Source of the DNA: a bacterium
GTDB taxonomy: Bacteria > Arandabacterota > Arandabacteria > Arandabacterales > Arandabacteraceae
Direction: 5' to 3'
Assembly: GCA_029933125.1 (NCBI GenBank)
Contig: JAOZOU010000007.1
Span: 79,007 to 143,006, forward strand
Length of the DNA: 64,000 nucleotides
The first letter of the stretch is position 1. Each line of letters opens with the position of its first letter. The notes under the pieces are model-generated. The model was not told the origin of the DNA. It ran no database searches and was given only the letters and a program-made list of their open reading frames with translations. This document shows, in pieces, positions 3,396-37,495 of the stretch. Both the position numbers and the translations under genes were made by a program.

Positions 3396-4856
3396 CTAGC
3401 TAGCGGTTTGCCTCATAGTTGCCTGAATCGAACCCCAGTAGCAGCCGTTGTCAGCCTGAAGGTAATCGCTTGTATAGGCATAAGCCCTTGCACGACAACC
3501 GCCACAGAAATCGCGATATTCGCAGAGTCCGCAGTAGGGATCAAGCAGATCCCGGTCCCTCAGCTCCCACAGAAGTTGTGACTTACACCATATATCACGG
3601 AAGGCATCCTTTCGGAGATTACCGACAGGAATTGGCATAAAAACACATGGAGTAACTATTCCATTGGGCTGAAAAGCAGAATAGCATCTGCCAGCACCAC
3701 ATCCACCAATATAACGTGCAAAGCTCTTGGCTCCAGGCCCAATGCCATAGCCAGCATGTCCAGCAGCAAAGACGCCGTCCTCACTCGAGTTGGCAGCGCA
3801 GTATCTACCAAGCTGAGGGGCAGTTGACATGATCACAAGGTTATCTTGCGAAAGATGTCCCCACAGAGTTGCAAGCATGTCCTCTCTTTGCTCAGGAGTA
3901 ATGTCGAGAGCCTTATCATCCCTTCCCCTGCCTGTTGGTATGAAGTTGAAAGCATTGAACCTCGTGCAACCAACATCTGAAGTGAATCTGATGAGATCCT
4001 CAAGCTCATCGAAATTGAGCTTGGTGATGGTTGAGGCTATTCCAATTTCCACACCTTCTATGCCCACAGAAGCTTTTATGCCATCGACAATCCGATGCCA
4101 GCATTGTCTTCCTCTAAAGGCATCATGCTTATCGGGATCCACACTATCAAGACTTACCTCGATGTACTCGACTCCGGCATCGCGAAGGCGCTTTGTCATA
4201 TCGTGGCCAAGAAGAGTTCCATTGGTAGCGATTGTTATAAACATTCCATGCTCACGTGCACGAGTGATGACTTGCCAGATGTCGGGGCAAACAAGGGGCT
4301 CGCCGCCTGAAAGTGCAAGGATGGCAACGTCCATTTCACCAAGCTCGTCAACTATGCGAAGCTTCTCATCAAGTGTGAGCTCATCATCTCTCTTGCGTCC
4401 AGCGTTCTGGTAGCAATGGCGGCATTTGAGATTACAGGCTTGAGTTATGTTCCAGACAACCATAAGAGGAGCGCAGAAAACCTGAGGGCGGCGCAATCCA
4501 ACCTTTCCAATACTGTATGTGGTGTTGATGATGGCTCTCAAGGTTGGTGGATCACCAAAGACTTTCTCCCTAAGAAGCTCCTTATCAGCTCTGGCTTGGC
4601 GTCTTATGATCTCAACGAAGGCATGGGGAATGAGATAGCGCAGACGATTGCCTATACCATTTTTTTGAGAGCCGTAGTTTAGCAAAGCCTCTTCAAGAAA
4701 TGTTCTACCTCCTTTTTCAACAGATGTCATCCATCTAAAGATCGCTCTCACGAGGCGATTGGAAAGCACCTTCTCGAGCTTGTAAGGATCAGGGAAATAG
4801 GCGCATGGGATACGATTATCTTGAAGATTGCCGGAGTGCTCAGGATCAGAAGCCAT
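3396..4856 (-). CDS. Radical SAM/SPASM domain protein
   Basis: A 486-residue iron-sulfur enzyme. The radical SAM cluster motif CNLKCRHC (Cys 141, 145, 148) lies in a typical NITQAC context, followed by the LSGGEP glycine-rich SAM-binding motif. The C-terminal part has a SPASM-type set of cysteines (CGAGRC, TPCVF, CGLCEYRDFCGGCRA) expected to hold auxiliary 4Fe-4S clusters. Such proteins include PqqE, NirJ/AhbD-type haem enzymes and peptide-maturing enzymes. No precursor peptide gene is visible next to it, so the substrate is unknown. A ~130-residue N-terminal extension precedes the radical SAM domain. It is transcribed divergently from the outer-membrane receptor gene across a ~200-bp spacer that carries a palindrome. 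Confidence 0.85.
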   Translation of the reverse strand: MASDPEHSGNLQDNRIPCAYFPDPYKLEKVLSNRLVRAIFRWMTSVEKGGRTFLEEALLNYGSQKNGIGNRLRYLIPHAFVEIIRRQARADKELLREKVFGDPPTLRAIINTTYSIGKVGLRRPQVFCAPLMVVWNITQACNLKCRHCYQNAGRKRDDELTLDEKLRIVDELGEMDVAILALSGGEPLVCPDIWQVITRAREHGMFITIATNGTLLGHDMTKRLRDAGVEYIEVSLDSVDPDKHDAFRGRQCWHRIVDGIKASVGIEGVEIGIASTITKLNFDELEDLIRFTSDVGCTRFNAFNFIPTGRGRDDKALDITPEQREDMLATLWGHLSQDNLVIMSTAPQLGRYCAANSSEDGVFAAGHAGYGIGPGAKSFARYIGGCGAGRCYSAFQPNGIVTPCVFMPIPVGNLRKDAFRDIWCKSQLLWELRDRDLLDPYCGLCEYRDFCGGCRARAYAYTSDYLQADNGCYWGSIQATMRQTAS

Positions 4857-4924
4857 GATTCTAACCCTCCGGTAGGATTAACATTAGCAAAATAAGCTAC
4901 ATGGGTTGATTGTGTCAAGCCAAA

Positions 4925-4950
4925 CATCGCAAGTATTGGTTCTTGCGATG
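4925..4950. promoter_or_regulatory. Perfect 9-bp inverted repeat in a divergent intergenic region
   Basis: CATCGCAAG and CTTGCGATG form a perfect 9-bp inverted repeat separated by 8 nt, in the spacer between the divergent radical SAM and outer-membrane receptor genes. It could be an operator bound by a dimeric regulator or an RNA hairpin in the receptor leader. There is no T-run after it, so a terminator is unlikely. Function is inferred only from position. Confidence 0.4.
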
Positions 4951-5061
4951 GTATTATGATGGCAATCTCGAGAGCATTTGGGTTATACTAACGGGAACGA
5001 ATACACGCGGGGAGTGTATAACAAAGCAGGTGCGCCCTTTTATTGCTTAGAAGGAGGACAC

Positions 5062-7491
5062 ATGAAAACCGCGTTCATCGTTGCTTTCGCTCTTCTTGGA
5101 TTGGCTGCATCGCTTGGAGCTCAACCCCCAATGGGTGGAATGAATGTGCAGGTGAGTATATCTGGTACGGTCGTGGATTCAGTCTCGAGTGAACCTCTTA
5201 AGTTTGCCAATGTAATGCTTTATGATTTCAGAGATAGCCTGATAACGGGAACAATAACTAATGACATGGGGCGCTTCACACTTAAGAATTTGCGACCGGG
5301 AATCTACAAAGTGAGTGTTAAGTTCATGGGATTCCATAAGAAGACCATTGAAAGAGTAAGGGTTGGTCCGAGGCAGCCAGAAGTTGATCTCGGTGTTATA
5401 GCATTGAGACCCGCTGTTCTCAGCGTTGGTGAGGTGGAGGTAACAGCTGAGCGACCTGAGATAACCTATAAGATTGACCGTAAGGTCATAAATGTAAGCA
5501 AGCAATACACGCGGACATCAGGCACCGCTGTTGATATCCTTGAGAATGTGCCGTCAGTTACAGTTGATGTTGATGGCAATGTAAGTCTTCGGGGAAGTGG
5601 CAGCTTCACTGTGCTCATCGATGGCCGACCAACGCCACTTCAGGCAAACGAAGCTCTTCAGCAAATCCCCGCAACTACAATTGAGAGCATTGAGATAATA
5701 ACCAATCCTTCGGCGAAATACGACCCCGATGGCATCGCGGGGATCATCAACATAATTCTCAAGAAGGGTAAGCTCAGAGGTATGAGTGGAATTTTCAATT
5801 TGAATGGAGGGCTGGACTATAAGTATGGCGGTGATTTCCTATTAAGCAAAAAGGGTGATGGTATCACCTACACTTTTGGGGCTGACTTCAACAATCGTGA
5901 ATTCCCTGGGAACATGGAATCTGAGAGTCAAACCGGCTGCCCTGGCTGTGCTGACCTCATCAAGTCAAAGGGAGCAATGCGCTGGCAGTGGCGGCCCTAT
6001 GGGATTCATGGGGAGGTCGATTGGAGGGCTGATGAATCCAACAGCATCACTGCTGGACTGCGGTGGGGCGGGCGTCGAATGGAAAGAAGTTCCAATGTTA
6101 CCTTCCATGAATATGACATAATGGGAAATCCTCCTTATGAATACTTCAGCCGCGGAGGCTGGAAGCGCTCAGGGGACTTCTACATGGGTAGTTTCACTTA
6201 CAATCATAAGTTTGCACGCAAAGGTCACGAGCTCACGGCTGAGGCAACTATGAGTCGGAGCGAAGGTGACGAGGTATCGAAGACCGAGACATTTGAACTC
6301 GATGGTACACAGAAGTCAGGGCAGCGTGAGACAGAAACCGGCCCATGGCGGCGGATTCGAGCAAAGGCTGACTATGTGCTTCCACTTGATGAGAAATCTA
6401 AAATCGAAGCTGGTTACCAGGCGCGCCTCGATGCCTCTAAGACCCAAACCAAGACTTATGAGTACGATACCTCAAGCGGTGAGTATGAGTATAGGCAAGA
6501 TTTTAGCCACAAGACTGAGTACGATCGTGACATCCAATCCATCTATGCAATGTTCTCATCGAATCCTGGCAAGTTTGGTTATCAGATTGGCTTGCGAGGT
6601 GAGTACACTTATCGCTCAATGCACCTTATCGACACCGATGAAAACTTTAAGATCGATAGAATAGATCTCTTTCCCACGCTCCATGTTTCATACCAGCATT
6701 CAGCTGGAACGCAATTTATGGCAAGCTATAGCCGGAGAATAAGGCGTCCACGCAACTGGCATCTTGAGCCATTTCTAACGTGGTTTGATGCAAACAATGT
6801 GCGCAAAGGTAACCCAGATCTCAAACCAGAGTACACTGACTCCTACGAAGCGGGTTTTCAGCAGAACTCCGGGCGCAGGATGCTTTCACTGGAGGCTTAT
6901 TATAAGGTAACCCATAACAAGACCGAGCGTATACAATCGGTATATGAGGATCAGATTCGCCTTCATACAATTGAAAATGTGGGGAAGGATTATGCACTCG
7001 GTGTTGAACTCATGCTAAATATCGGACTGATGGGATTCTGGAATGTGAATGTTATGGGGACTGCATATGACTACCGCATAAAGGGAAAGGTTTTGGGTGA
7101 AGATTTCTCTGACGAGAGTTTCTCCTGGAATGCACGACTCAACAACACCTTCAGGCTTGGAAAGGCGACACGTGTTCAATTCAATGCGATGTACAATAGC
7201 TCCAGGCCTTCAGCACAGGGCACGCGCAAGAGCTTCTTCCTCACAGATGCAGCGATCAAACAAGATCTTATGGGCGGGAGTCTTTCGATTTCACTTCAGG
7301 CAAGGGATCTCTTCTCAACCGGCAAGTTCGATCATACTACAGAAGGGGAAGGTTTCTACGACCACAGAACTTTCACTCGCAAGTCACCGAGTCTTACATT
7401 TACACTCTCTTATAACGTCAACAACTATAAGAAGAAACGTGAGGAGGGGCGTGAGGAAGTTCCCGAGATGATCCAGGAGGGCGAATTCTAG
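5062..7491 (+). CDS. Outer-membrane TonB-dependent receptor-like beta-barrel protein
   Basis: The ATG at 5062 is preceded by AAGGAGG, and the product (809 residues) starts with a clear signal peptide (MKTAFIVAFALLGLAASLGA). Next comes a carboxypeptidase-regulatory-like beta-sandwich (ISGTVVDSVSSEPLKFANVM to FHKKTIERV), then a plug-like domain (TSGTAVDILENVPSVTVD, GSGSFTVLIDGRP, TIESIEIITNPSAKYDPDG). The rest is a long beta-barrel region of the OMP_b-brl_3 type that includes SYSRRIRRPRNWHLEPF. The family sits in the outer membrane, and members are thought to import or bind large substrates. An open frame continues upstream to 4978 but lacks a ribosome-binding site. Substrate unknown. Divergent from the radical SAM gene, with a palindrome between them. 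Confidence 0.85.
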   Translation: MKTAFIVAFALLGLAASLGAQPPMGGMNVQVSISGTVVDSVSSEPLKFANVMLYDFRDSLITGTITNDMGRFTLKNLRPGIYKVSVKFMGFHKKTIERVRVGPRQPEVDLGVIALRPAVLSVGEVEVTAERPEITYKIDRKVINVSKQYTRTSGTAVDILENVPSVTVDVDGNVSLRGSGSFTVLIDGRPTPLQANEALQQIPATTIESIEIITNPSAKYDPDGIAGIINIILKKGKLRGMSGIFNLNGGLDYKYGGDFLLSKKGDGITYTFGADFNNREFPGNMESESQTGCPGCADLIKSKGAMRWQWRPYGIHGEVDWRADESNSITAGLRWGGRRMERSSNVTFHEYDIMGNPPYEYFSRGGWKRSGDFYMGSFTYNHKFARKGHELTAEATMSRSEGDEVSKTETFELDGTQKSGQRETETGPWRRIRAKADYVLPLDEKSKIEAGYQARLDASKTQTKTYEYDTSSGEYEYRQDFSHKTEYDRDIQSIYAMFSSNPGKFGYQIGLRGEYTYRSMHLIDTDENFKIDRIDLFPTLHVSYQHSAGTQFMASYSRRIRRPRNWHLEPFLTWFDANNVRKGNPDLKPEYTDSYEAGFQQNSGRRMLSLEAYYKVTHNKTERIQSVYEDQIRLHTIENVGKDYALGVELMLNIGLMGFWNVNVMGTAYDYRIKGKVLGEDFSDESFSWNARLNNTFRLGKATRVQFNAMYNSSRPSAQGTRKSFFLTDAAIKQDLMGGSLSISLQARDLFSTGKFDHTTEGEGFYDHRTFTRKSPSLTFTLSYNVNNYKKKREEGREEVPEMIQEGEF

Positions 7492-7642
7492 GGCTTGCCA
7501 CTCCCTGCCCTGCTGGGAAGTGTCCAGGGGCGGAGCCGCTCTTGGCGGTTTTGTCTTTCTCACGGGTTTACACAAGGCGTCTTTGCTGATAGCATGGATT
7601 CAAGCGCATGAGATGGACTTACGGTTGCACAGGTCGTGAGCA

Positions 7643-8137
7643 ATGGATGAGAAAAGATCCAAAGATGAGCAGGCCAGAGATGTCAGTTTTCTTGAAGCTT
7701 TTGAGGAACCACGGCGCTCGCGGGCTGCCACCCTTGCAATCTGGATTGTGATTGTTGCTGTGGCTTCTCTGATTATTCTCAGACAGGGCAAGTCCCGTCA
7801 CCATCCCACAATGAGTCCAGAACAAGAGCAGCGTTTCGCTGCGCGATTCGATTCACTTTGCAAAGTCTCGCTCTATCCTGTTGTCTGGCGAAGCGGGACC
7901 TTCGTCCATTCCCGGTTTGAGGGTAATTTTGAGAAGTGGACTTTGACAATTAGCTCGCGCGATTGGCAATTGCGTGATGAGGCAGCTCGCAAGGATCTTG
8001 TCGCGCTGATATGGAATGCCTATCGTGCAACCCGTGAGCAGGCTGGTGGCGATCCTGATAACGCCATGCTCGTAATCGATGATGAAAATGGTAACGTACT
8101 TGCTGAAGCCACCCCCACGAGCATCACCGTCCACTAA
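7643..8137 (+). CDS. Hypothetical single-pass membrane protein
   Basis: A 164-residue protein I do not recognise. It has a charged N-terminal cytoplasmic segment of ~35 residues, one transmembrane helix (ATLAIWIVIVAVASLIIL), and a soluble C-terminal domain of ~100 residues (ARFDSLCKVSLYPVVW onward, ending with DDENGNVLAEATPTS). The C-terminal domain is probably periplasmic by the positive-inside rule. The ribosome-binding site before ATG 7643 is weak. It lies 150 bp downstream of the receptor gene in the same direction and may be co-transcribed with it. Confidence 0.6.
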   Translation: MDEKRSKDEQARDVSFLEAFEEPRRSRAATLAIWIVIVAVASLIILRQGKSRHHPTMSPEQEQRFAARFDSLCKVSLYPVVWRSGTFVHSRFEGNFEKWTLTISSRDWQLRDEAARKDLVALIWNAYRATREQAGGDPDNAMLVIDDENGNVLAEATPTSITVH

Positions 8138-18498: not shown

Positions 18499-18512
18499 CA
18501 CTGGCTACGGAG

Positions 18513-18657
18513 GATAAAGGAGTTGCTGATCCAAACAGCGACGGAGACGCCGGCAGGACCGGTAGTCAATCCCACCGCTTTCACAGAAGGTGTCAGGGAA
18601 GACAGATAGAGGGCAGTTCAATTGATTTCAACTCCGGATTTCGGTTAGGCTGGTATC
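18513..18657 (+). repeat. Left ~145-bp direct repeat of the island
   Basis: This stretch (GATAAAGGAGTTGCTGATCC... to ...TCGGTTAGGCTGGTAT) matches 31098-31242 in the same orientation, with roughly 80-85% identity by eye and only minor length differences; the best block reads TAGTCAATCCCACCGCTTTC. Together the two copies bracket the restriction/defence-like gene cluster. They may be attachment-site or integration-derived repeats or duplicated remnants of a gene. No integrase is in the window. Confidence 0.75.
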
Positions 18658-19069
18658 GAGTCAAAACTGCGCGCTTATTCAGGGCATCGCCGGGAGTCGA
18701 AGACCCTATCCAGATGGAGTCGAACCATAAACTTACAGATAGAAGTGTCTCGTAGTTGAGCAAGGGACGTGCGATCTTGCAGTGCTTAACTTTGCTTCCG
18801 CGCGTCGTGTTGCCGGTGGATTTCCGAGTTGCGCGAGAGCGCAAGGGGAGGGCTTGGCAACGGCTGATGGCTCATGGCATCAACGCATGGCTGGCCTTTT
18901 CGCAAGGTGCAACAAGGAATCGGCAACGGGCATAGTGTTGAATTTACCCCTACGGCTGGTATGATGTGTACTGGTAAGGAGATCGTAGGAAACTGCGGGG
19001 CCAAACAGTCACAAGTGAACACCGGCGCAGGATAGAACCTCGGACATGTGCAACCAAGGTAGGCAAGCG

Positions 19070-19771
19070 ATGACGACAATCTGCTTGGATCCGAAAATAC
19101 CCCTGGGAAGGATCAAGCCCACCGATGTTAAGGCTGCCGTCGACGCATTCAACTCGAGATACGGAGAGATGGAACAGGTGCTGTGGCGGCTTTCAAGAGC
19201 TGCAGTTGACGCTCTTCTTGCCGGGAAGGATTCCCAGGCAATCGAGAAATTGGTCTGGACAGTCAGGAGTTGGTGGGGAGTGCAGGGAGTTCGGAAAGAG
19301 ACCAAAGTCAAGGCTGCAGCCACGCTTCTCGAGTTTGACTGGACCGAAAGCATGTTTGAAGCAAGCCTTGATCTTGAGTTCGATAGCAAGAATTTCGCTG
19401 TTCGGCGAGTTGCCGAGTTTGTGGAAGGTATGAGGAGACGAGGGGTAGCTCGTCGCGAATGGTCGCTCGCTTCCAAGGTTCTTCACTGGCTCATGCCATG
19501 GCGAGTCCCGGCGTATGATGGTTTCGTTAGAGGTACGCTTGGAGTCCCCTCGGGTATTGATAATGGGCTTGCGTATTCGTTTGTCGTAACGCTTGAATAC
19601 GGTCTAGCTCATGAGATTCTGCAACAGGGCGAGGAATGGTTTGGCGATATTGAGCCCCGATCACCTTTTCGGGCTTTGGATAAGTATCTCTGGTGGCATG
19701 GCGGTGGCAGTGCTGACCGTGCCGTGGTGGTGAAGAATCCCTGGCGCGTCCTCGACCCGCTCAACACCTGA
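19070..19771 (+). CDS. Uncharacterised island protein (SWWGVQGVRKETK family)
   Basis: A 233-residue soluble protein of unknown function. The N-terminal half is marked by AFNSRYGEMEQVLWRLSR and SWWGVQGVRKETK. The C-terminal half has KVLHWLMPWRVPAYDGFVRG, a pattern I associate with restriction-neighbourhood hypothetical proteins (helix-rich, 'lhwl.P..fP.yD'). I chose ATG 19070 (AGG-containing leader); a frame starts eight codons earlier. It lies 41 bp upstream of the HNH endonuclease gene in the same direction, so the two are probably co-transcribed. A second, truncated gene of the same family is at 37097, sharing only the first ~90 residues. Confidence 0.65.
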   Translation: MTTICLDPKIPLGRIKPTDVKAAVDAFNSRYGEMEQVLWRLSRAAVDALLAGKDSQAIEKLVWTVRSWWGVQGVRKETKVKAAATLLEFDWTESMFEASLDLEFDSKNFAVRRVAEFVEGMRRRGVARREWSLASKVLHWLMPWRVPAYDGFVRGTLGVPSGIDNGLAYSFVVTLEYGLAHEILQQGEEWFGDIEPRSPFRALDKYLWWHGGGSADRAVVVKNPWRVLDPLNT

Positions 19772-19812
19772 TAGCAGTTAGGCATAGCAGACACGGGGGA
19801 AAGGGGGCACGA

Positions 19813-20748
19813 ATGAACCGAGAAAAGAGGCTATTGAGAGACATTGCCCGCGAGGTAAGCCGGGGGCTTCGGAGCCGGAGGATTGGACAGCCGTTGAAAC
19901 TGAGGAAGAAGCCATCAATCACGGAAACAGACACGGACGGCTTTTGTGCAACTCTTGGTCTCATCCAGGGCAAGTCATGCGATCTGGAGATATGGCTCGA
20001 CCGCTATCCCGGGCTCGATAGGTCAATTTTCTACTACGGATTCGACTCCGAGAAAGAGGGTCCTATCCGCTCGCTTGCTCGGGCTGCCTCGAGGGAGCTG
20101 GGTCCTCACGGGAAGCTATGTGATAGGGACTATAAGCTGCATGAAGGGAGGTACCGGCTTCGTGCACCTATGAGAAGGGATCGGTTTGGACGCCCTTTCC
20201 TTGAGTGCTATCCTAACAAGAAGGCGTTTTTCTATGGTATATACGACGACGCAGAGGTGCCACCTGAAGGCAAAGACAGAGATCGGCTAGTAGAGCGCAT
20301 CGTGGGATTCTTCGAGAGCGTGCTAACATCTCTGCCTGAATTCAGTGCGCCTGAACTCAACCATGATGTCTATCCTAAGATAGAGAATCGGAAAGTTGTG
20401 GCTTCTCATCTACGGAGGGAGAGAAGTGGGTATCTCGCCACCCGTCGGAAGCAGGCGGATGGGTACACGTGTCAGATCTGTGGCTTTCATTTTGAGGATG
20501 TCTATGGTGAGCTTGGGCGCGACTTTGCTGAAGCGCACCATATTGTTCCACTTGCAAAGTACGACGAGGTGCGGCGCACAACTGTTGATGATCTTATTAC
20601 GGTCTGCTCCAACTGCCATCGGATGCTGTATCGAATGAATGGAACGCGAAAGGACCCACTCATATTGAAGCAGAGGGTTCGCAAGTTTGTCAGAGCAGCT
20701 CGTCGCAAGGGGCATACCTCATCTAGGAAGAGGAAACCGAGAAGGTAG
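19813..20748 (+). CDS. HNH endonuclease
   Basis: A 311-residue protein. The C-terminal third is an HNH nuclease domain of the zinc-bound His-Me type: Cys220-x2-Cys223, then EAHHIVPL (His242/His243, where the catalytic general base lies), then CSNCHRMLY (Cys265, Cys268, His269). The N-terminal ~190 residues are a separate basic domain that could recognise DNA or a modification, as in McrA-like restriction enzymes, but I cannot name its family. The start is supported by GGGGGAAAGGGGG just upstream. Context (methyltransferase and helicase genes downstream, DUF gene upstream) suggests a nuclease role in the island system. Confidence 0.85.
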   Translation: MNREKRLLRDIAREVSRGLRSRRIGQPLKLRKKPSITETDTDGFCATLGLIQGKSCDLEIWLDRYPGLDRSIFYYGFDSEKEGPIRSLARAASRELGPHGKLCDRDYKLHEGRYRLRAPMRRDRFGRPFLECYPNKKAFFYGIYDDAEVPPEGKDRDRLVERIVGFFESVLTSLPEFSAPELNHDVYPKIENRKVVASHLRRERSGYLATRRKQADGYTCQICGFHFEDVYGELGRDFAEAHHIVPLAKYDEVRRTTVDDLITVCSNCHRMLYRMNGTRKDPLILKQRVRKFVRAARRKGHTSSRKRKPRR

Positions 20749-20882
20749 AGCCCCACGACGTCTGGAGTATCTTCCCTTGAGCAGTCGTTCAAGGACATTT
20801 GCGTTGCGGACGGCTCAACCACCAGACCAAAGCCCCAGGTGGCTTGCATCCTCAGGTGATCCCCCGAGCGATTCATTCTTTC

Positions 20883-20911
20883 TTGAGAATAGGTGAGTAT
20901 CCATGTAAAAT
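20883..20911 (+). promoter_or_regulatory. Candidate sigma-70 promoter of the methyltransferase operon
   Basis: TTGAGA (20883-20888) and TAAAAT (20906-20911) are separated by exactly 17 bp, a near-consensus -35/-10 pair. The predicted start is ~115 nt upstream of the GTG of the methyltransferase gene, within the 285-bp gap after the HNH gene. It would give the four-gene operon its own promoter. Confidence 0.45.
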
Positions 20912-21033
20912 GGTGATCGCGGGACGGTGTATGGCCAGAATTGGTTCAGGGCTGGGCTGAGTCGTTTAGGTTCGACGCAATGCAAGCAAGGGCGAGAATA
21001 CTTTCAGCGCGATGAAGCAAGGGAGATCTATAC

Positions 21034-24000
21034 GTGCAGGATGCCGATCTCCAAGGGATCAAGCAGTTACTTAGTGAGTACGACTCGGTTGAGAAGGGTT
21101 GTAGTTTCTTTCGACAGCTGGGTTATGAGGTTTTGGATCCGCCTGTTTCCTTCTCGCTTGAGGATCTCCCTCAAGGTGCGACTGAGTCGATCCGTGATGT
21201 CTATGAGCTTGTGAATGTCGGTCGGCCATCACCCTTCCGCGTCTTCCATGTCCAGCTGGAGGATGGAGCGATCCGCCGAACACCCATCCGGAGATTCCTC
21301 GAGGCGTTCTATCGGCATCACCCTCAGGGCGAGAATCTCTTCGTGTTCTCTTCGAAGGACCGTTTTGATGAGCTGGCATTCGTGTCCCCGGTGCGCATCC
21401 CTGATCCCCGAGATAGTGCGAAGGTTCGCCTTTGGCTTCGCTACCTCCAAGTGCAAAGGACTGATCCCTACCGGACTGATCAGGAGGTTCTAAGTCGGAT
21501 CCGGGCAGACGGGATACGCGACGCAACTAAGATTTGGGAGCTTCACAGAGAAGCCTTCAGTGTCCAGCGCGTCACGAAGGACTTCTTCAAGGACTATAGC
21601 AAGATCTTTGGACTTGTAGCCAAACATCTTACCGAGATGCATCCCAAGAAGGGCTCCGAGTGGGCTCGCAGCTACGCTCACCAGCTTCTCAACCGCATCA
21701 TGTTCATCTATTTCATTGCACGGAAGGGATGGCTGTTGGGACCGGACGGTGGGCCAGACCGGAACTTTATGCGCAACTTCTGGGAGGCGTATCGAGAGGC
21801 GAAGCTAGCATCAAGGCGAAAGCGCGACACCTTCCACCGCGACTGGCTCTCAGTACTCTTCTTTGAAGCTTTTAACAACAGGTGGCAAAACCGCGCTGAG
21901 TATCGCAAACGCTTTCCTGATTGGCTCATCAAGTCGCTTTCCCAAGCACCTTACCTCAATGGTGGTCTCTACACGGAGAACCGAGAAATCGATGGCTCCC
22001 TTCAGAAATATCTTTCAGATGAGGTGTTTGAATATCTCTTCGAGAAGTGGACCGACAACACTCCCCTCGGACTCTTTGAGCGTTACAACTTCACGGTCGT
22101 TGAAAGCGGACGCTTCGACGAAGAGGTTGCAGTTGACCCCGAGATGCTCGGAATGGTTTATGAACGTTTGGTTAACATTGCCTTCGAGGTCGGCCAGGAA
22201 GCTGAAGAAACGGACCGCAGGGGTGAGGCTGGTATCTTCTACACCCCGCGCACAGAGATTGATCTCATGTGCCGGCTTTCTCTGGTGGACTGGCTCAGCA
22301 ATCAACTCGGTGAGAAACACAAGGATCTTCTGTATCACTGGATTCTTGCTTTCTCAAGTGATGAGAAGGAAGAGGCTGACGAGAGGGTGACAAGGCAAGG
22401 GATGTGGCGCAGACTTAATGACCTTCTCCGCCGTGTCCGGGTGTCTGATCCCGACGTGGGTTCGGGTTCCTTCCTCATTGGCATGATGCTCGTCCTCGAT
22501 GACCTGCAGGCACGGTGCAACAATGCTCTTGGTGAAGGTGAGACTCCCTACGAGCGGCGCAAGCGTATCTTGCGAGATCAACTATATGGTGTTGATGTCA
22601 TGGAATGGGCTGTCCGGGTTGCCGAGCTCAGGCTGTGGTTGCAACTTGTTGTGGAAACGGAGCTCCGCCCTGCGGAACGTCGCTTCAAACCACTTCTGCC
22701 CAACCTGAACTTCAAGCTCCGCTATGGCGACAGCCTCCTCCAAACAGTGGGTGATGTTGATATGAGCCCGTTCCGTCGAGCCAAGCTACCCATCTCGCGT
22801 CCCCTCAAAGGGCGTCTCACGAAGCTGCAGGGAAAGAAGCGCCACTTTTTCCAGGGTGAAACCAAGGGGCTCAGCGAGGAAATGCTCCTTAAGGAAGAGC
22901 TTGACCTTTTCCGTGCCATTCTTGATGAAAGAATCCATACGCTGAAGAAAGAGCTGAAGCGGGTGCGCCAGAGGCTTGAGGATATGAAATCACAGGGAGA
23001 CATTTCGGAGGAGATATCAGGGTCAGGACGAACAGCGAGGGTGGCTCGCCAGGTAGAGGAGCAGATCGAGAGTTATGAGGAAGAGCTTCAGCGCTTCGAA
23101 GAGACCAGACGGGCTCTCAGGTCAGATCGGCCCCCACCTTTTGTCTGGGACATCGCATTCGTTGAGATTTTTGAGAGTGAGAATCCTGGCTTTGACATTG
23201 TCATTGGGAACCCCCCTTATGTCCGCCAAGAAAAGATAAGCGACTATCTTGGGCGATTCGACCGGCGGGAATACCTGGAGAGACTTAACGACAGCCTCAG
23301 AGAAATCTACCCCGATTTCATGGGCAGGAGACGCAGGATCAGTGGAAGAGCAGACTACTACATCTATTTCTACCTACATGGTCTCTCGCTTTTGGCAGAC
23401 AAAGGCACATTTTGTTTCATAACATCAAACTCATGGCTTGACGTTGATTTTGGCAAGGATCTCCAGGAGTTTCTGCTTTGCCATTGCCACTCAAAAATGG
23501 TGATCGATAACCGGGCCCGCCGGAGCTTTGCCCAGGCAGATGTCAACACTGTGATAGTACTCTTGGGTCAGCCCGATCGGAAACGGCGACTTGGGCGAAA
23601 GGAAATGCAATCCCGCCATGTGCGCTTTGTAGCTTTCAAGGTCCCATTTGAGGAAGCCCTGAGTCCTGTTGTGTACCTGGAGATCGAAGACAAGAAGGCT
23701 TACCGTCACATGGCGAACTTCCGTGTACTCAAGCGTCCTGAGTTCCGCTCGGTGCTCTGGGATCAGTGGTCTCTCTACCGGGAGGGGCTGGCTGAGCCAG
23801 AAGCTTGGACCGAAGAGGAAGAGGGAAAGTACGAAGGCGACAAGTGGGGTGGCAAGTATCTCCGAGCTCCCGACATCTACTTTACCATTCTTGAGAAAGG
23901 CAAGGGTAAACTCGTGCGCCTTGGCGATATCGCCGAGGTGCGTAGAGGATTCACAACAGGTGCTAACGAATTCTTCTATCTCCAACCTGTTGATATGACA

Positions 24001-24924
24001 GTCAAGCAGGTTTCCGAAGTGGCAGCCAAGAAGCCTAGGACCCCTGTTCGCGTCAAGAACGGTGCAGGCTGGGAGGGGGAGATTGAAGCGGCATGGCTCC
24101 GCCCTGTAATCAAGAGCCCACGCGAAATCAAGACCCTGCAGGTACGGCTGGAGGATCTCAGCAACTTGATTTTCATACCACCGGATGGCGTTCGCAGAGT
24201 GATGGACACTTCCTCTCGCAGTGGAGTGCTTCAGTGCCTCAAGAAGCAGTGGCCTAAAGCTGTCGCCTACATCCGCTGGGGCGAACGGCAAGGCTACCAA
24301 AACCGCCCCACTTGCGCAAGTAGACCATGGTGGTGGGATGTAGGGGATCCGCGTATTCCGACGGCGATATGGTTCAAGGCATTCAACGATAGGTTCTTCG
24401 TACCTCATAATGACGTTGCACCATGTAGTGACAGGTTGTACGCCATTCACTGTGCCCAGGGCCCTGATGCTATGGCTGTCTCGGCAGCTATCAACTACAC
24501 GGCGCAGACCATTATCGCTGACGCATGCGGCAGAGTCAACCTTGGCGAAGGCGCGCTGGATAACATGACCTACGAGGCTGCGCGGAACTTGGTGCTAAAC
24601 CCACCGGTCATCGATCCTGGCCAGAGGAGGAAGCTGGCGCAATCCTTTAGGGCTCTGGCCTGCTGTCCAGTGCGCAGCATCTTCCAGGAACTTGGGTTTG
24701 ATCTTTGCCCGCTTAGTCGCTGCCAAGACCCAGAGCATCCATATGAACATGTCAAGCCCGAGGAGCTCACTCTCGACCAAGTGAAAGCTGCTTCGCCAGA
24801 CCGATTCGATCTCGACTCAGTGGTCTTCGACGTGCTCGGGCTCAGTGATGACGAGCGACTTGAGGTCTACAAAGCGGTCGCCCAGCTCGTCAAAGACCGC
24901 CTCGTCAAAGCCAGGAGTGTATGA
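21034..24924 (+). CDS. Eco57I/PglX-type DNA adenine methyltransferase (possible type IIG-like)
   Basis: A 1296-residue protein starting at GTG with AGGGAG ~8 nt upstream. An N-terminal domain of ~150 residues (FRVFHVQLEDGAIRRTPIRRF, FVFSSKDRFDELAFVSP) could be a nuclease or recognition module. SAM-binding motif I is DPDVGSGSFLIG near residue 471 (variant of DPxxGSG), and the catalytic motif IV is NPPY near 725, which indicates N6-adenine methylation. Between them is a charged coiled coil (~612-696). The C-terminal ~500 residues form a target-recognition-like region (VRLGDIAEVRRGFTTGANEFF). Size and layout resemble BREX PglX and type IIG enzymes, but no PglZ is present. It is translationally coupled to tcmP by a 4-bp ATGA overlap. 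An N-terminal relic of a related gene lies at 35806. Confidence 0.85.
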   Translation: MQDADLQGIKQLLSEYDSVEKGCSFFRQLGYEVLDPPVSFSLEDLPQGATESIRDVYELVNVGRPSPFRVFHVQLEDGAIRRTPIRRFLEAFYRHHPQGENLFVFSSKDRFDELAFVSPVRIPDPRDSAKVRLWLRYLQVQRTDPYRTDQEVLSRIRADGIRDATKIWELHREAFSVQRVTKDFFKDYSKIFGLVAKHLTEMHPKKGSEWARSYAHQLLNRIMFIYFIARKGWLLGPDGGPDRNFMRNFWEAYREAKLASRRKRDTFHRDWLSVLFFEAFNNRWQNRAEYRKRFPDWLIKSLSQAPYLNGGLYTENREIDGSLQKYLSDEVFEYLFEKWTDNTPLGLFERYNFTVVESGRFDEEVAVDPEMLGMVYERLVNIAFEVGQEAEETDRRGEAGIFYTPRTEIDLMCRLSLVDWLSNQLGEKHKDLLYHWILAFSSDEKEEADERVTRQGMWRRLNDLLRRVRVSDPDVGSGSFLIGMMLVLDDLQARCNNALGEGETPYERRKRILRDQLYGVDVMEWAVRVAELRLWLQLVVETELRPAERRFKPLLPNLNFKLRYGDSLLQTVGDVDMSPFRRAKLPISRPLKGRLTKLQGKKRHFFQGETKGLSEEMLLKEELDLFRAILDERIHTLKKELKRVRQRLEDMKSQGDISEEISGSGRTARVARQVEEQIESYEEELQRFEETRRALRSDRPPPFVWDIAFVEIFESENPGFDIVIGNPPYVRQEKISDYLGRFDRREYLERLNDSLREIYPDFMGRRRRISGRADYYIYFYLHGLSLLADKGTFCFITSNSWLDVDFGKDLQEFLLCHCHSKMVIDNRARRSFAQADVNTVIVLLGQPDRKRRLGRKEMQSRHVRFVAFKVPFEEALSPVVYLEIEDKKAYRHMANFRVLKRPEFRSVLWDQWSLYREGLAEPEAWTEEEEGKYEGDKWGGKYLRAPDIYFTILEKGKGKLVRLGDIAEVRRGFTTGANEFFYLQPVDMTVKQVSEVAAKKPRTPVRVKNGAGWEGEIEAAWLRPVIKSPREIKTLQVRLEDLSNLIFIPPDGVRRVMDTSSRSGVLQCLKKQWPKAVAYIRWGERQGYQNRPTCASRPWWWDVGDPRIPTAIWFKAFNDRFFVPHNDVAPCSDRLYAIHCAQGPDAMAVSAAINYTAQTIIADACGRVNLGEGALDNMTYEAARNLVLNPPVIDPGQRRKLAQSFRALACCPVRSIFQELGFDLCPLSRCQDPEHPYEHVKPEELTLDQVKAASPDRFDLDSVVFDVLGLSDDERLEVYKAVAQLVKDRLVKARSV

Positions 24925-26003
24925 AAGTGTCCAAGTATCAGCTAAAGGAGGTCTCGAAGGCAAAGCTGATCATCTTGGGAAAGTATTTCCCAGCATGGGC
25001 ACGCATTCTTGGATCGCGGAATCCTCTGCTCGGGTATGTAGATTGCTTCGCTGGCGCTGGGAGATACACGGGTGGGGAGGAAGGCTCACCGCTCATTATC
25101 CTTCGCAAGGCTGTGGAGGTCTGCCGCTCCGAGACTCTTCGGTTGGTAGCCTTCTTTGTCGAGAAAGACGCTAGCTCTGCCGAGAGGCTGCAGTCCGAGA
25201 TACAGTCCACTTTTCCAAAGCTTCACAATGTATCTTGGAGAGTCTTTAATGAAGATGCTCATGACTTCATTCCAAAGCTTCTCGAGGCCATGCCTGAAGC
25301 GCTGCCGTCCTTTTTCTTCATCGACCCATACGGTCATCCTCTTAGTATACCGGTTATGAATCAAATCCTTTCGCGGAGGAGGTCAGAGATCCTCCTCAAT
25401 CTCATGTGGTACGTTGTTAACATGCACCTTAACAATCCGCAGATGAAGACGGCCATGGACTCGATGTTCGGGCACGGCAATTGGTGCCTGCAACCCTTTA
25501 TGCAAGCCAAGGGCCACATACGTGAAAGTGAATTCGTCGACTATTTTTTATCTCACCTAGAGGCGGAGTATCTACTTAGGTTCAGGATCCGCTTCAGTCC
25601 TGAGGACCGGGTGCGACGTGGAGAACGCCGAACCAAGTACTATCTTATCCATCTATCAAACCACGTCAAAGCCGCACTCCTCATGAAGGAGGTAATGTGG
25701 CATCTGGGTGATGAGATGGGCACCTTTGATTTCTCTGCTACGCATCAGGCATACCTGTTCCCCAGGACGCCGCAGCTAAATGACCTAATCAAATACCTTC
25801 GTCAACACTATGTCGGCAAGGAAATTCGGATCTCATTCGATGGGTTGCGTGAAGAAACCTGGGATCTTCCGTTCCTTGAGAAGCACTACCGGAAAGCGAT
25901 AAGAACGTTGGAGATAAATCGAGAATTGTCAGTCCAACGTGTCGAGTCGAAGAGAACAGGTATCAAGGGTAAGGATATTATCATTTTCGGTAGAAGACGG
26001 TAA
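24921..26003 (+). CDS. tcmP: Three-Cys-motif partner protein TcmP
   Basis: A 360-residue protein that matches the TcmP family in its N-terminal signature ([10 protein letters not shown]..., then [21 protein letters not shown] at about residues 39-59) and in [12 protein letters not shown] near 130. The GxG-containing first motif and DPYG motif look like a Rossmann methyltransferase-type fold. TcmP genes are typically next to a gene for a three-Cys protein (DUF5131, phage Gp37/Gp68), and that is so here: the next gene starts 1 nt after this stop. The biochemical role of the family is not established. The ATG overlaps the methyltransferase stop, indicating one operon. Confidence 0.85.
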
Positions 26004-26004
26004 G

Positions 26005-26745
26005 ATGAGCCACTATTCGAAGATCGAGTGGACCGAGAGAACTTGGAATCCGGTTACTGGTTGCACCAAGGTCAGCCCCGGTTGCAAGCACTGCTACGCT
26101 GAGCGCTTTGCTCGGCGACTACAGAAAATGGGGAACCCAAGATACCGAAACGGTTTTACATTAACACTCCACGAGGACCTGTTGGAATTGCCCTTGCAGT
26201 GGAAAAAGCCATCGATGATCTTCGTAAATTCGATGTCTGATCTTTTCCACGAACAGGTGCCGTTTAGATTTATCCTTAGAGCTTTTGAAACGATGAGGAG
26301 GGCGGACTGGCATGTTTATCAAATCCTTACTAAGCGATCTTCAAGGCTCGCTGAATTAGCGGACAAGCTGGATTGGCCCCGAAACATATGGGTGGGCGTT
26401 AGCGTGGAGACTGCGAAGTTCTACGAGCGGATCAAGCACCTGCAGGCGGTCCCGGCCGAGGTGCGGTTCGTCTCATGCGAGCCTCTGCTGGGTCCCCTTG
26501 ATAATATGCCGCTCGAAGGTATTCATTGGGTGATCGTGGGCGGAGAATCTGGCCCTAGGGCAAGGCCGATGCGTCTACGGTGGATCCTGTCGATAATGGA
26601 GCAGTGTCGTAGATCGAACGTTCCGTTCTTCTTCAAGCAGTGGGGTGGAGTACACAAGTGGAGGAACGGTCGTGAATTGATGGGAAAGGAGTTCAACGAG
26701 ATGCCACGCTTCGAGATAGCAGGTGTCTGGAGAGGGAGTAAATGA
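26005..26745 (+). CDS. DUF5131 / phage Gp37-Gp68 family three-Cys protein
   Basis: A 246-residue protein with the family start [15 protein letters not shown] and the three-cysteine motif [14 protein letters not shown] (Cys20, Cys27, Cys30). Further hallmarks are [21 protein letters not shown]-like [30 protein letters not shown] and VIVGGESGP. The arrangement resembles a compact radical SAM-like fold, and the cysteines could bind an iron-sulfur cluster, but no reaction is known. The start is fixed by the one-base gap after tcmP and by the conserved N-terminus; an in-frame ATG at 25939 would overlap tcmP by 65 bp. It overlaps the helicase gene by 4 bp (ATGA). Confidence 0.85.
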
Positions 26746-29700
26746 ACCCTATCTCCGACCTCATTGACAATCGTAGGCACACACTTGCAGAGGTCCTGCG
26801 TAGCATCTTATCACAAAGCAAGGATCCTCGCTTGGATGTCGTGACTGCCTTCTTTAACCTCAAAGGGCTTGAGGCTCTCGAGCCGGAGATCGATGCCCTG
26901 GCTCAATTGCGGCTCCTCCTGGGCAAGGAGCAAGAGCAGGGTTTCGTCGTCGGACAGCGTCTCCTTTCTGAGCTCGAGGATGCTACCTCCCGAGGGGAAA
27001 CTACTGGCGCGGAGATTGGACGATGGTATGGATTCCTTGCCGGGGACACTGTTGAGGTTCGATGTTACGAGAAGGCTTTCGTTCATGGGAAAGCGTATCT
27101 CTTAGATGGGGTACCTACCTTAGGTTCTTTGGGCATCGTGGGTTCCTCCAACTTCACGGGGGGTGGACTCACTACCAATCTCGAGCTCAACGCTGTTCTC
27201 AAGCAGGCCTCAGCGATCAAAGATCTGAAGGCCTGGTTTGAGGATCTTTGGAGTGAGGCGGAGGATTACAAGGCAGACCTCCTGGCACTGCTGGGGCGGT
27301 TCACGCGTACTTATACGCCTTACGAGATCTACATCAAGGTCATCTATGAGGCACTGCGGGATAAGCTGGACGAGGAACTTGCAGAGCGTGATGATCATCC
27401 ATCACCGATTGCCCTGACCGACTTTCAACATGATGGATACTTAGCAGCTCGTGAGATCTTGGAGAACTACGGTGGCGTGATCATCGCTGATTCAGTCGGT
27501 CTTGGCAAGACCTATCTTGCTCTTAGGCTCTTAGAGGACTATGCCTACCATGAGCGGCAGACCGCGCTGGTAGTGTGTCCTGCCGCCATCGCTGACACGG
27601 TCTGGCGTCCTCTACTCCAGCGGTTCGCAATCCCTCACGAGACCATCTCAATGGAGCGGGTGAGCCAAAGTGATTTCCCGGTTGATGAGTATGCGGCCAA
27701 GTTCCGGATCATCGTTGTGGATGAGAGTCACAATTTCCGCAACCCAGACACCAACCGCTGGCAAAACCTTTTCAGGATTATTGCTGAGGGCGATCCGGAC
27801 AAGAAGGTCATCCTCCTCACCGCTACACCTGTCAACAACACTGTATTTGACCTCTATCACCAGTTGCGTCTTATCACCCGAGATGAACGCCGCTTGTTTC
27901 TCGCTGCGGGCATTCCTGATCTTTTCACCTACTTCCGACGCGCTGAGGAGAACAAGGAAGCCCTGTATGAGGTTCTGGAGGCGGCAGCTGTTCGGCGGAG
28001 CCGACCTTTTATCCGCACCAACTACCCCGAAGCGGAGATCGACGGACAGAAAGTTAGGTTCCCTGAGAGAAAACTGCATACGATAGACTACAGTCTTAGC
28101 GAGACCTATGGACCTGATCTCTATCGCAAGGTTGCCAAAGCCATTGAGGAGCTCTTTCTCGCCCCCTATCAGATCGATACCTACAGGCGCGAACTGATTA
28201 AGGCGAGGAAGGTTCGCTTGGGGCAGCGGAATCCGTTTGAAGATCCAAACGAAAGCGAAGATACCATGGTCCAGAGGCTACAGGAGACCTTTGGTTGGTC
28301 CAAGAAGGAGGCACACGAGTTCCTGATGACTATTGGTCGCCAGACAGCACTCGCACATATTATGCGGGTGCTCTACCTTAAGCGGCTGGAATCCTCGATC
28401 GAAGCGTTAAGGATTTCGCTCGGTAGGCTCAAGGGTTTTATGGAGAAATTTCTCGAGGCACTTGAGAAGGGTAGGCTCCTTGAAGCTGGTGAGTACCGCC
28501 GGTGGTTGCAGTTGGAGGACTCCTGGGACGAGGATGGGGAGGCATTTGACTTTGATGCTTTCATAGATGCTCTTCCCACCTTGCCCAGTGGCAAGTACGA
28601 TGTCGAGAGCATCCGGAAGGCTGTTAAGGCTGACTTAACCGCGCTCGAGAACTCCCTTTCGGAACTGTCAAAGGAGCGGACTGATGATAAGCTCGAATCG
28701 TTAAAGGCACTCCTTTCGTCGCCGGAGCTCCTTGGAAGAAAGGTCGTGGTTTTCTCGTACTTCAAGGATACCGCTCGCTACATCTACAACGAGATCAAGC
28801 AAGACGAGCAGTTTTTGTCGGACCTGGGGCATAAGCGCATTAGCATCGTCGATAGTAATGTCAAGCCCTACGAGCGGCGTGGTCGCATTGTACGGTTTGC
28901 GCCGCAGGCTAACGGCGAACCAGACATGGCAAAGGATCAGCAAATTGATCTCCTCATAAGCACAGATGTGTTGTCAGAGGGGCAGAATCTGCAGGACGCT
29001 GATACAATTGTAAACTATGATCTTCATTGGAACCCAGTTCGCATGGTGCAGAGGGTCGGCCGGCTTGACCGAATTGGCTCACCCCACGAGGTGATTCATG
29101 TATACAACTTTTTCCCTGAGGAGGAGCTGGAAGACATTCTCCGCCTGCTTAAAAGACTTCACGATAAGCTGAATGCAATCAACCGGACAGTGGGTCTCGA
29201 TGCCTCAATACTCGGCGAGACACCGAACCCGATGGACTTCAACATACTTCGGCGGCTTGAGCGAGAGGACAGAAGTACACTGGAGGAATTGGAGGAAGAG
29301 AGCGAACTCACGGTGGGCGAGTTCCTCAAGCAGGATTTGCTACGGTTCCTTAAGGAGGCTGGTGAGGAAAGGCTTAAGGAAATTCCGCTAGGAGTTGGAA
29401 CAGCGAAGCAGACTAGGGAAGGATCTAAGGGCTTCTTTGCAGCGTTTCGTAATCCGCTCACGAGCCAGCATCACTGGTTGTTCTTCGATGAGGGGAGGGG
29501 ACGGATTGTGGAGAGGCGACTCGAAGCCATAAAGGTCATCCGTAGTGAGGCGTCCGAGGGTCCGGCCGCTCTGCCTGAGGATTTTGATCCCAGACCCATG
29601 ATCCAGAAGCTTCGACGCCATCTATGGAATCGTATCCGCTCGGCGGCTATAGCCCCGCAGAAGTTTCCGTCACCGCAACGGCAGGTCATAAACTGGCTTC

Positions 29701-29960
29701 ATAGCCTACCCCCCTCGGCTGATCGCAACACTCTGCTGGGATATTTTGAAGCTAGGTCAATAGCTGGTCCTGACCTGAAGGAGTTAAGGCGCCTGTGGCG
29801 ATCTCGTTCCCAGCGTCCTAGCGAGGAATGGCAGGATATGCTTATGGAGTTTGCTGAGAGCCACCCCCATCCACCCTCCCCGGGCGAGGTCGAGCGAGCC
29901 CTTGCGCCCCAATCCGAGGAAGACCTCGAATGCATCGCCTGGATGCTCATCGTCCGGTGA
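26742..29960 (+). CDS. PLD-domain SNF2-type helicase/ATPase
   Basis: A 1072-residue protein. The N-terminal ~200 residues carry a phospholipase D-like (HKD-type) half-site: HGK (His115, Lys117) followed by GSSN (134-137), the pattern of PLD nucleases. The helicase core follows, with Walker A GLGKT near 250, DESH box (VDESHNFRN) near 325, motif [11 protein letters not shown] near 359, and C-terminal motifs [12 protein letters not shown] and [10 protein letters not shown] near 770. This is the SNF2/HepA-like architecture of helicases in DISARM, Hma and similar defence loci. DNA translocation is expected, with the PLD module as a possible nuclease. It is the last gene of the coupled operon. A fused region at the C-terminus (~850-1072) is not recognised. 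Confidence 0.85.
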
Positions 29961-30439: not shown

Positions 30440-31390
30440 CATCAAGGGTGAATGATTCAATTGGTTGTTCGACAATTCTGGCCACCTGCATAAGCTTATT
30501 GATCACAGTTCCAAGGGTGTGGGTTCCAGGTACCAATGTCCGAGCCGAAGCGAGTCGTCTACATGACCCTAGCTCCGGTCCGACAGCTGCATGACTCACA
30601 AGTGCCCAACTGGCTACCGGTAAGACAGTACAAGCAACGTGACAGGATCCATCTGATTCCCCGGTCGGATGGCGATTGTGCTCACCATCTAACAAGGTTC
30701 TAGGATTGTCTGGACAGCGTATCTAGTTTCGAAAATGTGGACTGGAGCTAGAGGGCCAAAACCGACAAAAACGGGGCAAGAATGGAAAGAGGGTCTACGG
30801 AAGGCGAAGCGGTCGGGGATCGTTGTCGTAACCCGTGATACCATTTTCATGAAGTTGGGACCCACAATCGCCTGGGGAGCGAGGATTCCGATTTTTGCCC
30901 ATAGTTACTAAGCGGGAAGCTACTGCAGTCAGGAAGATGTCTTGAGAGTGTTTGCTTACAAACAGAAGCATAGCAGGTGACCGAGGAGTTAATATCTACA
31001 GCTAGGGCAGAGCGGGTGGTAGGAGCTGGGCAGGTCCATACATCGCAGGGTTGGCTGCAGTGGCCTTTCAGGTTAACCCCAGCGTAAGCCCCGGGAGAAT
31101 AAAGGAGTTGCTGATCCAAACCGCGACGGATACGCCGGCATGACCGGTAGTCAATCCCACCGCTTTCATAGAAGGCGTCAGGGAAGACAGATCAGATGCA
31201 TTTCGATTGATTTCGTCCCCGCGTCTCGGTTAGGCTGGTATTGATTGGTGGCTGATGCGCCGATTTCAGGTTGGTAAGGCGAGGTGAAGCATGAGGGATG
31301 CGTTTGCGGTGTCTCGTTTTTTGGGCAGTATCCATGGGCCTCTGGGTGATTGATCAGGCGAAGAGGCGAAAGCGATAGGGAGAAGCCAAG
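30440..31390. other. Right boundary region of the accessory island
   Basis: About 950 bp without a supported gene. It contains the right copy of the ~145-bp direct repeat at 31098-31242. The open frames here lack initiation sites and recognisable domains. Confidence 0.45.
31098..31242 (+). repeat. Right ~145-bp direct repeat of the island
   Basis: Direct-orientation partner of 18513-18657. The best-conserved block reads GGAGTTGCTGATCCAAAC, then TAGTCAATCCCACCGCTTTC, GTCAGGGAAGACAGAT and CTCGGTTAGGCTGGTAT. Substitutions are scattered, so the two copies are not a recent duplication. Confidence 0.75.
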
Positions 31391-35805: not shown

Positions 35806-36034
35806 GGCGGTATACTTCCACTGAGAAGGGTTGTAGTTCGTTTGGATGGCTGGCTTATGAGGTTTTGGGCCTGCCTGTTCGCCTTTCATTGAGGATCTTC
35901 CTCAGGGTGTGACTGGGACGATCCGTGATGTCCATCAGCTTGTGAATGTCGATCAACCATCGCCTTTCCGGGTCTTTCATGTCCAGCTGGAAGATGGAGT
36001 GATCCGGCGAACACCCATTCGGAAATTCCTTATG
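35806..36034 (+). pseudogene. Relic of the N-terminus of an Eco57I-type methyltransferase
   Basis: This segment aligns without large gaps to 21075-21303, inside the intact methyltransferase gene. Shared pieces include GAGAAGGGTTGTAGTT, GCTTATGAGGTTTTGG against GGTTATGAGGTTTTGG, GATCCGTGATGTC and CATGTCCAGCTGGA. Translated in pieces it reads EKGCSSFGWLAYEVLGL, then after a frameshift EDLPQGVTGTIRDVHQLVN and PSPFRVFHVQLEDGVIRRTP. It is broken by at least one frameshift, lacks a start codon and ends abruptly before the CPBP gene. It is a remnant of a second copy of the methyltransferase. Confidence 0.75.
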
Positions 36035-37096: not shown

Positions 37097-37495
37097 ATGC
37101 CGTCCGGGAAAGCACTCCATAATGTCAGACCTTCTGAGATAAGAGCCGCTGTTGAGGCTTTCAACGAAAGATACGGCGATATGGAGAAGGTGCTGTGGCA
37201 TCTTTCGCGGGAAGCGGCTTGTGCCTTGCTCGCGAGGAGGAGATCACTGGCGATTGAGGTACTTGTCTGGACAATCAGAAGTTGGTGGGGAGTGCAGGGA
37301 GTAAGGAAAGAAACGAAAGCAATAGCGGCGGATACGCTTCTGCAACTTGACCGGAAGCCAGACTATTTCGGAAGAACTGTCGCTTTGGATGCTGAAAGCG
37401 ATATATACCATCTGTTCTTGAACACCCACGTTCCGACAGTGTATTATTGCAGCCGGAATTTCATAGGCGACATGTCAAAAGATCGGGCTGCCTGA
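37097..37495 (+). CDS. Truncated paralogue of the island gene at 19070
   Basis: A 132-residue frame. Residues 8-95 align with the N-terminal half of the island protein (AAVEAFNERYGDMEKVLWHLSR, IRSWWGVQGVRKETK; about half of the residues identical by eye). After that the sequence diverges and the C-terminal domain with the HWLMPWRVPAYD motif is missing. It is probably a gene fragment fused to unrelated downstream sequence, not a functional full-length member. It ends 23 bp before the RDD gene start. Confidence 0.55.
   Translation: MPSGKALHNVRPSEIRAAVEAFNERYGDMEKVLWHLSREAACALLARRRSLAIEVLVWTIRSWWGVQGVRKETKAIAADTLLQLDRKPDYFGRTVALDAESDIYHLFLNTHVPTVYYCSRNFIGDMSKDRAA

Follow-up and report, generated by a model that had tools for sequence, protein, structure and literature searches.

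Toxin genes embedded in restriction operons are already known, PrrC within PrrI and the backup effectors of BREX being examples. PrrC is kept inactive by the PrrI restriction complex and goes into action once restriction is blocked (PMC3710099). BREX loci and the DUF499-centred BREX-related (Hma) loci embed nuclease, OLD-TOPRIM, HEPN, PIN, and Schlafen effectors (PMC12839542). Variable extra open reading frames (ORFs) such as RloB lie inside type I hsd loci of Campylobacter jejuni, as far as the citation in PMC10440598 tells. The locus described here lies in a 64,000-nt stretch of DNA (the window, to whose positions all coordinates refer unless a locus is named) and encodes an N6-adenine DNA methyltransferase (MTase), TcmP, DUF5131, and a PLD(HKD)-SNF2 helicase-nuclease. 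We consider it probable, at roughly two chances in three, that the MTase and the helicase form a two-gene restriction-modification-like core with a cassette slot between them, and that TcmP-DUF5131 is the cargo held there in this case, a self-contained second defence layer. The genes are as follows.

19046-19771, + strand: orphan gene, 241 aa, outside the core; limited to the window's genus in the searches made
19813-20748, + strand: HNH nuclease gene, 311 aa (PF01844, 2.9e-10); not conserved with the core
21034-24924, + strand: core gene 1, Eco57I/PglX/type IIG-like N6-adenine DNA MTase, 1296 aa, GTG start (Eco57I PF07669, 1.9e-29)
24921-26003, + strand: slot cargo gene 1, TcmP, 360 aa (TIGR04474, 7.7e-47)
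26005-26745, + strand: slot cargo gene 2, DUF5131, ATG start (PF07505, 4.2e-99)
26742-29960, + strand: core gene 2, PLD(HKD)-SNF2 helicase-nuclease, 1072 aa (PLDc_2, SNF2, and Helicase_C)

A sequence-only reading of this DNA had described the same gene set and order with tight junctions, and the ORFs, families, and motifs were all found where it had placed them. The MTase and TcmP genes overlap by 4 bp, a 1-bp gap separates TcmP from DUF5131, and DUF5131 overlaps the helicase gene by 4 bp; an alternative in-frame GTG for DUF5131 is present at 25939. The gap between the HNH gene and the MTase gene is 285 bp. No extra ORF of at least 400 aa is found between ~18.35 and 32 kb. All key motifs of the MTase, TcmP, DUF5131, and the helicase are intact, and the catalytic motif and Cys pairs of the HNH protein are present. 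In the MTase, motif I (DPDVGSG) is located at 472 and motif IV (NPPY) at 726, and the protein matches the PADLOC models REase_MTase_IIG/DrmMI. Its N-terminal 334 residues are modelled as an alpha-beta region with a predicted local distance difference test (pLDDT) score of 86.1; the model matches nothing in the PDB at E ≤ 1e-3, and the region lacks a conserved (D/E)xK. No active nuclease of the kind that a type IIG restriction-modification enzyme bears in its MTase polypeptide was seen there. The SNF2 motifs of the helicase are GLGKT at 253, DESH at 327, and a further motif at 770. Its catalytic residues are HxK at 115/117, Asn137, and Glu148; His115, Lys117, Asn137, and Glu148 are invariant in 11 relatives, as expected of a PLD/HKD nuclease.

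The locus resembles several described systems in part. As in PrrC/PrrI and other HEPN toxins in restriction-modification operons (PMC3710099), a toxin-type gene would lie amid restriction-modification genes. However, PrrI is a type Ic hsd host carrying an ABC-HEPN RNase, whereas the host in the window consists of two genes, an MTase and an HKD-SNF2 helicase. RloB, judging from its citation in PMC10440598, shares the presence of variable genes within a restriction operon, though the operon there is type I hsdRMS and not the core found here. DISARM also combines an N6-MTase with an SNF2-like helicase, and the window proteins match its profiles (DrmMI and DrmD) only partially; the operon proteins include no separate DrmA, DrmB (DUF1998), or DrmC, and the PLD domain here is part of the SNF2 helicase polypeptide. 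The HKD-SNF2 helicase and the N6-MTase of BREX-related (BR) type 2 (PMC12839542) are both present, but its defining DUF499 ATPase and DUF3780 are not (no Pfam match among the operon proteins and no unexplained ORF of at least 400 aa nearby). Likewise, PglZ and the BrxC ATPase, hallmarks of BREX, are missing among the operon proteins. The sequence-only reading had noted that PglZ, BrxC/DUF499, and DrmB were lacking, and none of them was matched among the operon proteins.

These partial likenesses raise the question of whether local loss of the ATPase or accessory genes has turned a DISARM, BREX, or DUF499-centred BREX-related (Hma) system into the present locus. The helicase indeed gives partial matches to DrmD, HmaA, and BrxHI, and the MTase to DrmMI and PglX, and BR type 2 shares the HKD-SNF2 plus N6-MTase logic (PMC12839542). 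However, a separate PADLOC model, C3a139 'HKD+Snf2', is the top PADLOC match of the helicase (2.7e-85), better than the models of those systems, and the NCBIfam scores are far below their cut-offs (144 vs 610 bits for DrmD, and likewise for PglX). Moreover, the two-gene form recurs across bacteria and archaea without DISARM, BREX, or Hma partners and is therefore not a product of local loss. We regard such a reduced origin as improbable.

The conserved unit is the MTase plus the helicase. In tblastn searches, the two genes occur together on plasmids of Thermus, Thermococcus, Halorussus, and Deinococcus, and on plasmids of Nostoc, Microcystis, Planktothrix, and Calothrix; the genes separating them vary by host. 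Searching the helicase alignment against genome contigs gave at least 80 additional loci, and the MTase profile gave further ones in genomes of Cyanobacteria, Chloroflexota, and Thermoplasmatota. The MTase as a single query sequence matched nothing in the genome contigs, and no MTase/helicase pair was found in the eight genomes representing the window's own phylum. The nearest relative among the matches listed is L109, in a Chloroflexota genome, where the MTase and the helicase are 63% and 71% identical, respectively, end to end to those of the window. The slot of L109 is empty, with 13 bp between the two genes. Neither TcmP nor DUF5131 is present at this locus, and no homologue of the HNH gene or the orphan gene is nearby. 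Since L109 lacks all of them, TcmP-DUF5131, the HNH gene, and the orphan gene do not belong to the core.

This observation bears directly on the idea that the MTase, TcmP, DUF5131, and the helicase, perhaps with the HNH protein, constitute an integral machine of four to six genes, as the co-directional genes and the junctions of 4, 1, and 4 bp would suggest. L109 largely refutes it. In addition, phmmer searches for TcmP, DUF5131, the HNH protein, and the orphan protein in other core loci found none among the matches listed, and the TcmP pair leads an independent existence elsewhere, as described later. We consider such a machine very unlikely. The TcmP-DUF5131 pair is thus cargo that can be swapped rather than an integral part. 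The sequence-only reading had taken the pair as integral and had named its absence from the majority of the operon's close homologues as the outcome speaking against this, and the pair is indeed absent from most of them: it is missing at L109 and from all the other 44 MTase-first loci examined, among the matches listed. The HNH gene, which that reading had listed among the components, and the orphan gene are not conserved with the core either.

We surveyed 89 MTase/helicase pairs, deduplicated on the helicase at 95% identity, as a nonexhaustive sample, and counted a slot as filled when a same-strand gene of at least 90 aa lies between the two core genes. Same-strand cargo is present in 28/45 MTase-first loci (29/45 counting L011, where the nearest MTase-like match is itself a slot ORF) and in 7/44 helicase-first loci. 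The Fisher p-values for this difference, 1e-5 with 28 and 4e-6 with 29, are nominal because the loci are related by descent. All loci were retrieved via helicase or MTase similarity, never via the cargo, and the contrast is thus not a selection effect. The order of the core genes switches only about nine times on the helicase tree.

The slot could, of course, simply be a safe, well-expressed insertion point with recombining homologous flanks, into which functionally unlinked genes hitch-hike passively. That many slots in the survey are empty and that modules of these kinds often occur elsewhere as free-standing loci agrees with this. However, plain insertion would favour the outer flanks too, and the slot is filled far more often than the position directly upstream (8/45, p 1e-5) or downstream (10/45, p 1e-4). 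The tightness of the junctions, overlapping or near zero, also speaks against unlinked passengers; the median gaps are 5.5 bp between the MTase and the cargo and 8 bp between the cargo and the helicase, a spacing that suggests co-transcription of the core and the cargo.

Slot contents vary while the flanking end of the MTase gene and the start of the helicase gene are conserved. In the Nostoc-type loci L017, L104, and L105, the helicases are 88-92% identical and the flanks (the final 100 bp of the MTase gene and the initial 200 bp of the helicase gene) are mostly 74-95% identical, whereas the slot DNAs give no mutual blastn match. Conversely, L104 and L011 carry homologous cargo (E 1.7e-143) though their helicases are just 69% identical, and cargo therefore appears to move between cores. 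Among MTase-first loci, the cargo label requires 26 changes on the helicase tree.

The cargo of the other loci, assigned by Pfam and PADLOC, is as follows.

L091: AbiEii with an AbiEi-like partner
L008: AbiEii with a small upstream partner matching no model
L047: DarT with a DarG-type macro protein
L016: CD-NTase (PADLOC 'Cyclase') with SLATT_4
L106: Xre-MbcA-ParS-like protein with RES
L116, slot 3871-7832: six genes including Mrr_N, DUF3644, a phosphoribosyltransferase, an MNT-like protein, and HEPN
L034 (homologues L035 and L195): Xre-M78 peptidase with DUF4411, matching the RosmerTA antitoxin model RmrA
L026: AAA_21 with DUF4276, matching HEC-01A
L038: OLD-TOPRIM-like protein
L009: GmrSD_N protein
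L037: PLD-like nuclease (L028 is a weaker match)
L118: HNH nuclease
L046: PDDEXK_2 nuclease
L117: REase-like nuclease
L065: trypsin-like protein
L120: IS200-like (Y1) transposase domain

Toxin, abortive-infection, and nuclease modules dominate this cargo, which speaks against passive hitch-hiking. Contrarily, its extreme diversity, including the trypsin-like protein and the Y1 transposase, which have no obvious fall-back role and misfit a simple toxin reading, is in keeping with passive insertion. Weighing both sides, we judge it unlikely, if clearly less so than a reduced DISARM or BREX origin, that core and cargo are functionally unlinked. The range of cargo also separates the locus from its described counterparts. 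The core takes many unrelated kinds of cargo, unlike PrrI, and a coupling between core and cargo would be assumed by analogy. Unlike BREX and Hma loci, it has one fixed slot between both core genes. DarTG, AbiE, and CD-NTase/SLATT are found as cargo here, whereas DarT, AbiE, and CBASS do not appear in the main text of PMC12839542.

The modules at L116 are apparently stacked. In Thermoplasmatota, all four slots (L034, L035, L195, and L199) hold the same-sized pair of an Xre-M78 protease and a DUF4411 PIN protein (RosmerTA-like), with homology verified for three of the four loci; this is the only cargo that seems stable within a lineage, among the matches listed. Slot genes without an assigned family occur at L014/L017, L015, L030, L104, L105, and L112. 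Those at L014:5810-7607, L017:12478-14278, L104:10255-11939, L105:6277-6867, and L030:7993-9952, from cyanobacteria and Chloroflexota, have no explanatory Pfam or PADLOC family, and their position makes them candidates for new toxin or defence modules. The unfamiliar slot genes encode, for example, proteins of 184 + 421, 440, and 197 aa in cyanobacteria and 336 + 328 aa in Chloroflexota. Helicase-first relatives carry rarer cargo, namely Fic, Schlafen AlbA_2, and an HI1420-type antidote. Schlafen AlbA_2 or Fic lies between the core genes at L070, L079, L180, and L071, and the cargo set is narrower than that of the MTase-first loci.

TcmP and DUF5131 are listed by PADLOC as candidate defence proteins. 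TcmP matches PDC-M30A (1.4e-24) and DUF5131 matches PDC-M30B (2.9e-112) with a gap of 1 bp, as in the PDC-M30 system, and DUF5131 also matches M41B. Both genes match the models of this candidate defence pair (PDC-M30/PDC-M41; three-Cys-motif partner) and adjoin each other as they do elsewhere; the difference is that here the pair lies inside a restriction operon. Outside the window, it is a near-obligate free-standing pair. DUF5131 adjoins TcmP in 21/30 Chloroflexota TcmP loci and is close by in 22/23 TcmP loci on IMG/VR viral contigs (L215-L237). The pair appears in several gene orders; for the most part it stands by itself or lies on (pro)viral contigs, and a wider scan of its neighbourhoods gave no repeated link to the MTase/helicase core.

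TcmP has the motifs DCFAGAG at 41 (DxFxGxG) and DPYG at 135. Its AlphaFold2 model (pLDDT 85.6, predicted template modelling score 0.86) has a winged-helix-turn-helix-like C-terminus, and the nearest PDB structure is RlmJ (Foldseek 8e-8; Z 18.8, root-mean-square deviation 3.2 over 215 residues; Z 15.5 for Trm1). RlmJ is the 23S rRNA A2030 N6-methyltransferase. The RlmJ-like fold of the model does not prove the substrate of TcmP. DUF5131 has the motifs Cys20-x6-Cys27-x2-Cys30 and GGESG at 179. The three cysteines are invariant in 12 homologues, with a Cx6Cx2C spacing unlike the classical CxxxCxxC, and a weak match to the radical S-adenosylmethionine (SAM) family TIGR04471 was found. DUF5131 is thus a predicted radical SAM protein, having the three cysteines required. 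Profiles of TcmP and DUF5131 matched no PDB sequence, and the literature searched gave no usable account of the function of either protein. The most economical reading is that the two form a SAM-dependent RNA- or nucleotide-modifying pair, which may harm the cell, shield host RNA from phage or from phage-triggered RNases, or act in some other way.

HKD restriction enzymes such as BfiI have an HKD half-site that is completed by dimerisation. From the identity of their domains, we infer that the core proteins restrict DNA. The MTase would methylate an adenine motif on self DNA, its target-recognition region probably residing in the C-terminal half. The helicase would move along unmethylated DNA and cut it via an HKD site formed by two subunits. 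The sequence-only reading had assigned these same roles of marking self and attacking unmodified DNA, and the families and context lend support to it. The cargo may be co-transcribed with the core and, like PrrC in the PrrI system, be free or active once the core has been blocked or overwhelmed. The chemistry of TcmP-DUF5131 is probably RNA modification, judging from the RlmJ-like fold and the radical-SAM-type cysteine motif. More tentatively, the core may be a general guard that silences unrelated slot effectors and releases them upon phage inhibition, in which case the unfamiliar slot genes and TcmP-DUF5131 would be new effector families; this extension is possible, at well below even odds.

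Four points weigh against a two-gene core whose slot cargo serves as a second defence layer. The functional coupling of core and cargo is argued by analogy with PrrC/PrrI and the embedded backup effectors of BREX. The surveyed loci are related, which makes the p-values smaller than they should be. Among the matches listed, TcmP-DUF5131 fills the slot at this locus alone, with no second independent instance. Finally, about 10 filled slots hold proteins that are unfamiliar or not clearly toxic, such as the trypsin-like protein and the IS200-like transposase.

What appears to be new, as far as we are aware, is the two-gene carrier, the sharply bounded slot, the range of cargo, and TcmP-DUF5131 as cargo; no description of a two-gene carrier with a slot was found in the open-access literature searched. 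The operon is thereby reduced to a simple rule: both core genes are fixed, and the single slot between them is exchangeable. Under this rule, defence or toxin modules are predicted among the slot genes lacking a family, providing a position-based route to discovery. TcmP-DUF5131, a common pair, is given a definite setting and a chemistry that can be tested, namely RNA methylation of the RlmJ type together with a radical SAM enzyme. Should core and cargo prove to be coupled, the locus would offer one system in which the guarding of unrelated effectors by a restriction system can be tested.

The surroundings of the operon hold features relevant to its mobility, together with gene remnants, listed below.

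18509-18659, + strand: left copy of a 151-bp imperfect direct repeat (blastn within the window), 88% identical to 31094-31244
31094-31244, + strand: right copy of the 151-bp imperfect direct repeat (blastn within the window)
35822-36030: degenerate fragment of the MTase N-terminus, 84% DNA identity
37097-37495: fragment of the orphan gene, 71% DNA identity

The 151-bp repeat brackets the whole defence block and has just two copies in the genome. One copy, the right one, recurs in a same-genus genome, G002, there too in the right flank; the contigs of G002 break off on either side of the place where the defence block would sit. The fragments at 35822-36030 and 37097-37495 are, judging from their similarity, traces of an earlier, second related copy. 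The orphan protein matches no Pfam, PADLOC, or PHROGs family, with one weak NCBIfam match far below the cut-off. Its gene family was seen in this genus only in the searches made: the window has one intact member and one fragment, and G002 has an 87% partial copy.

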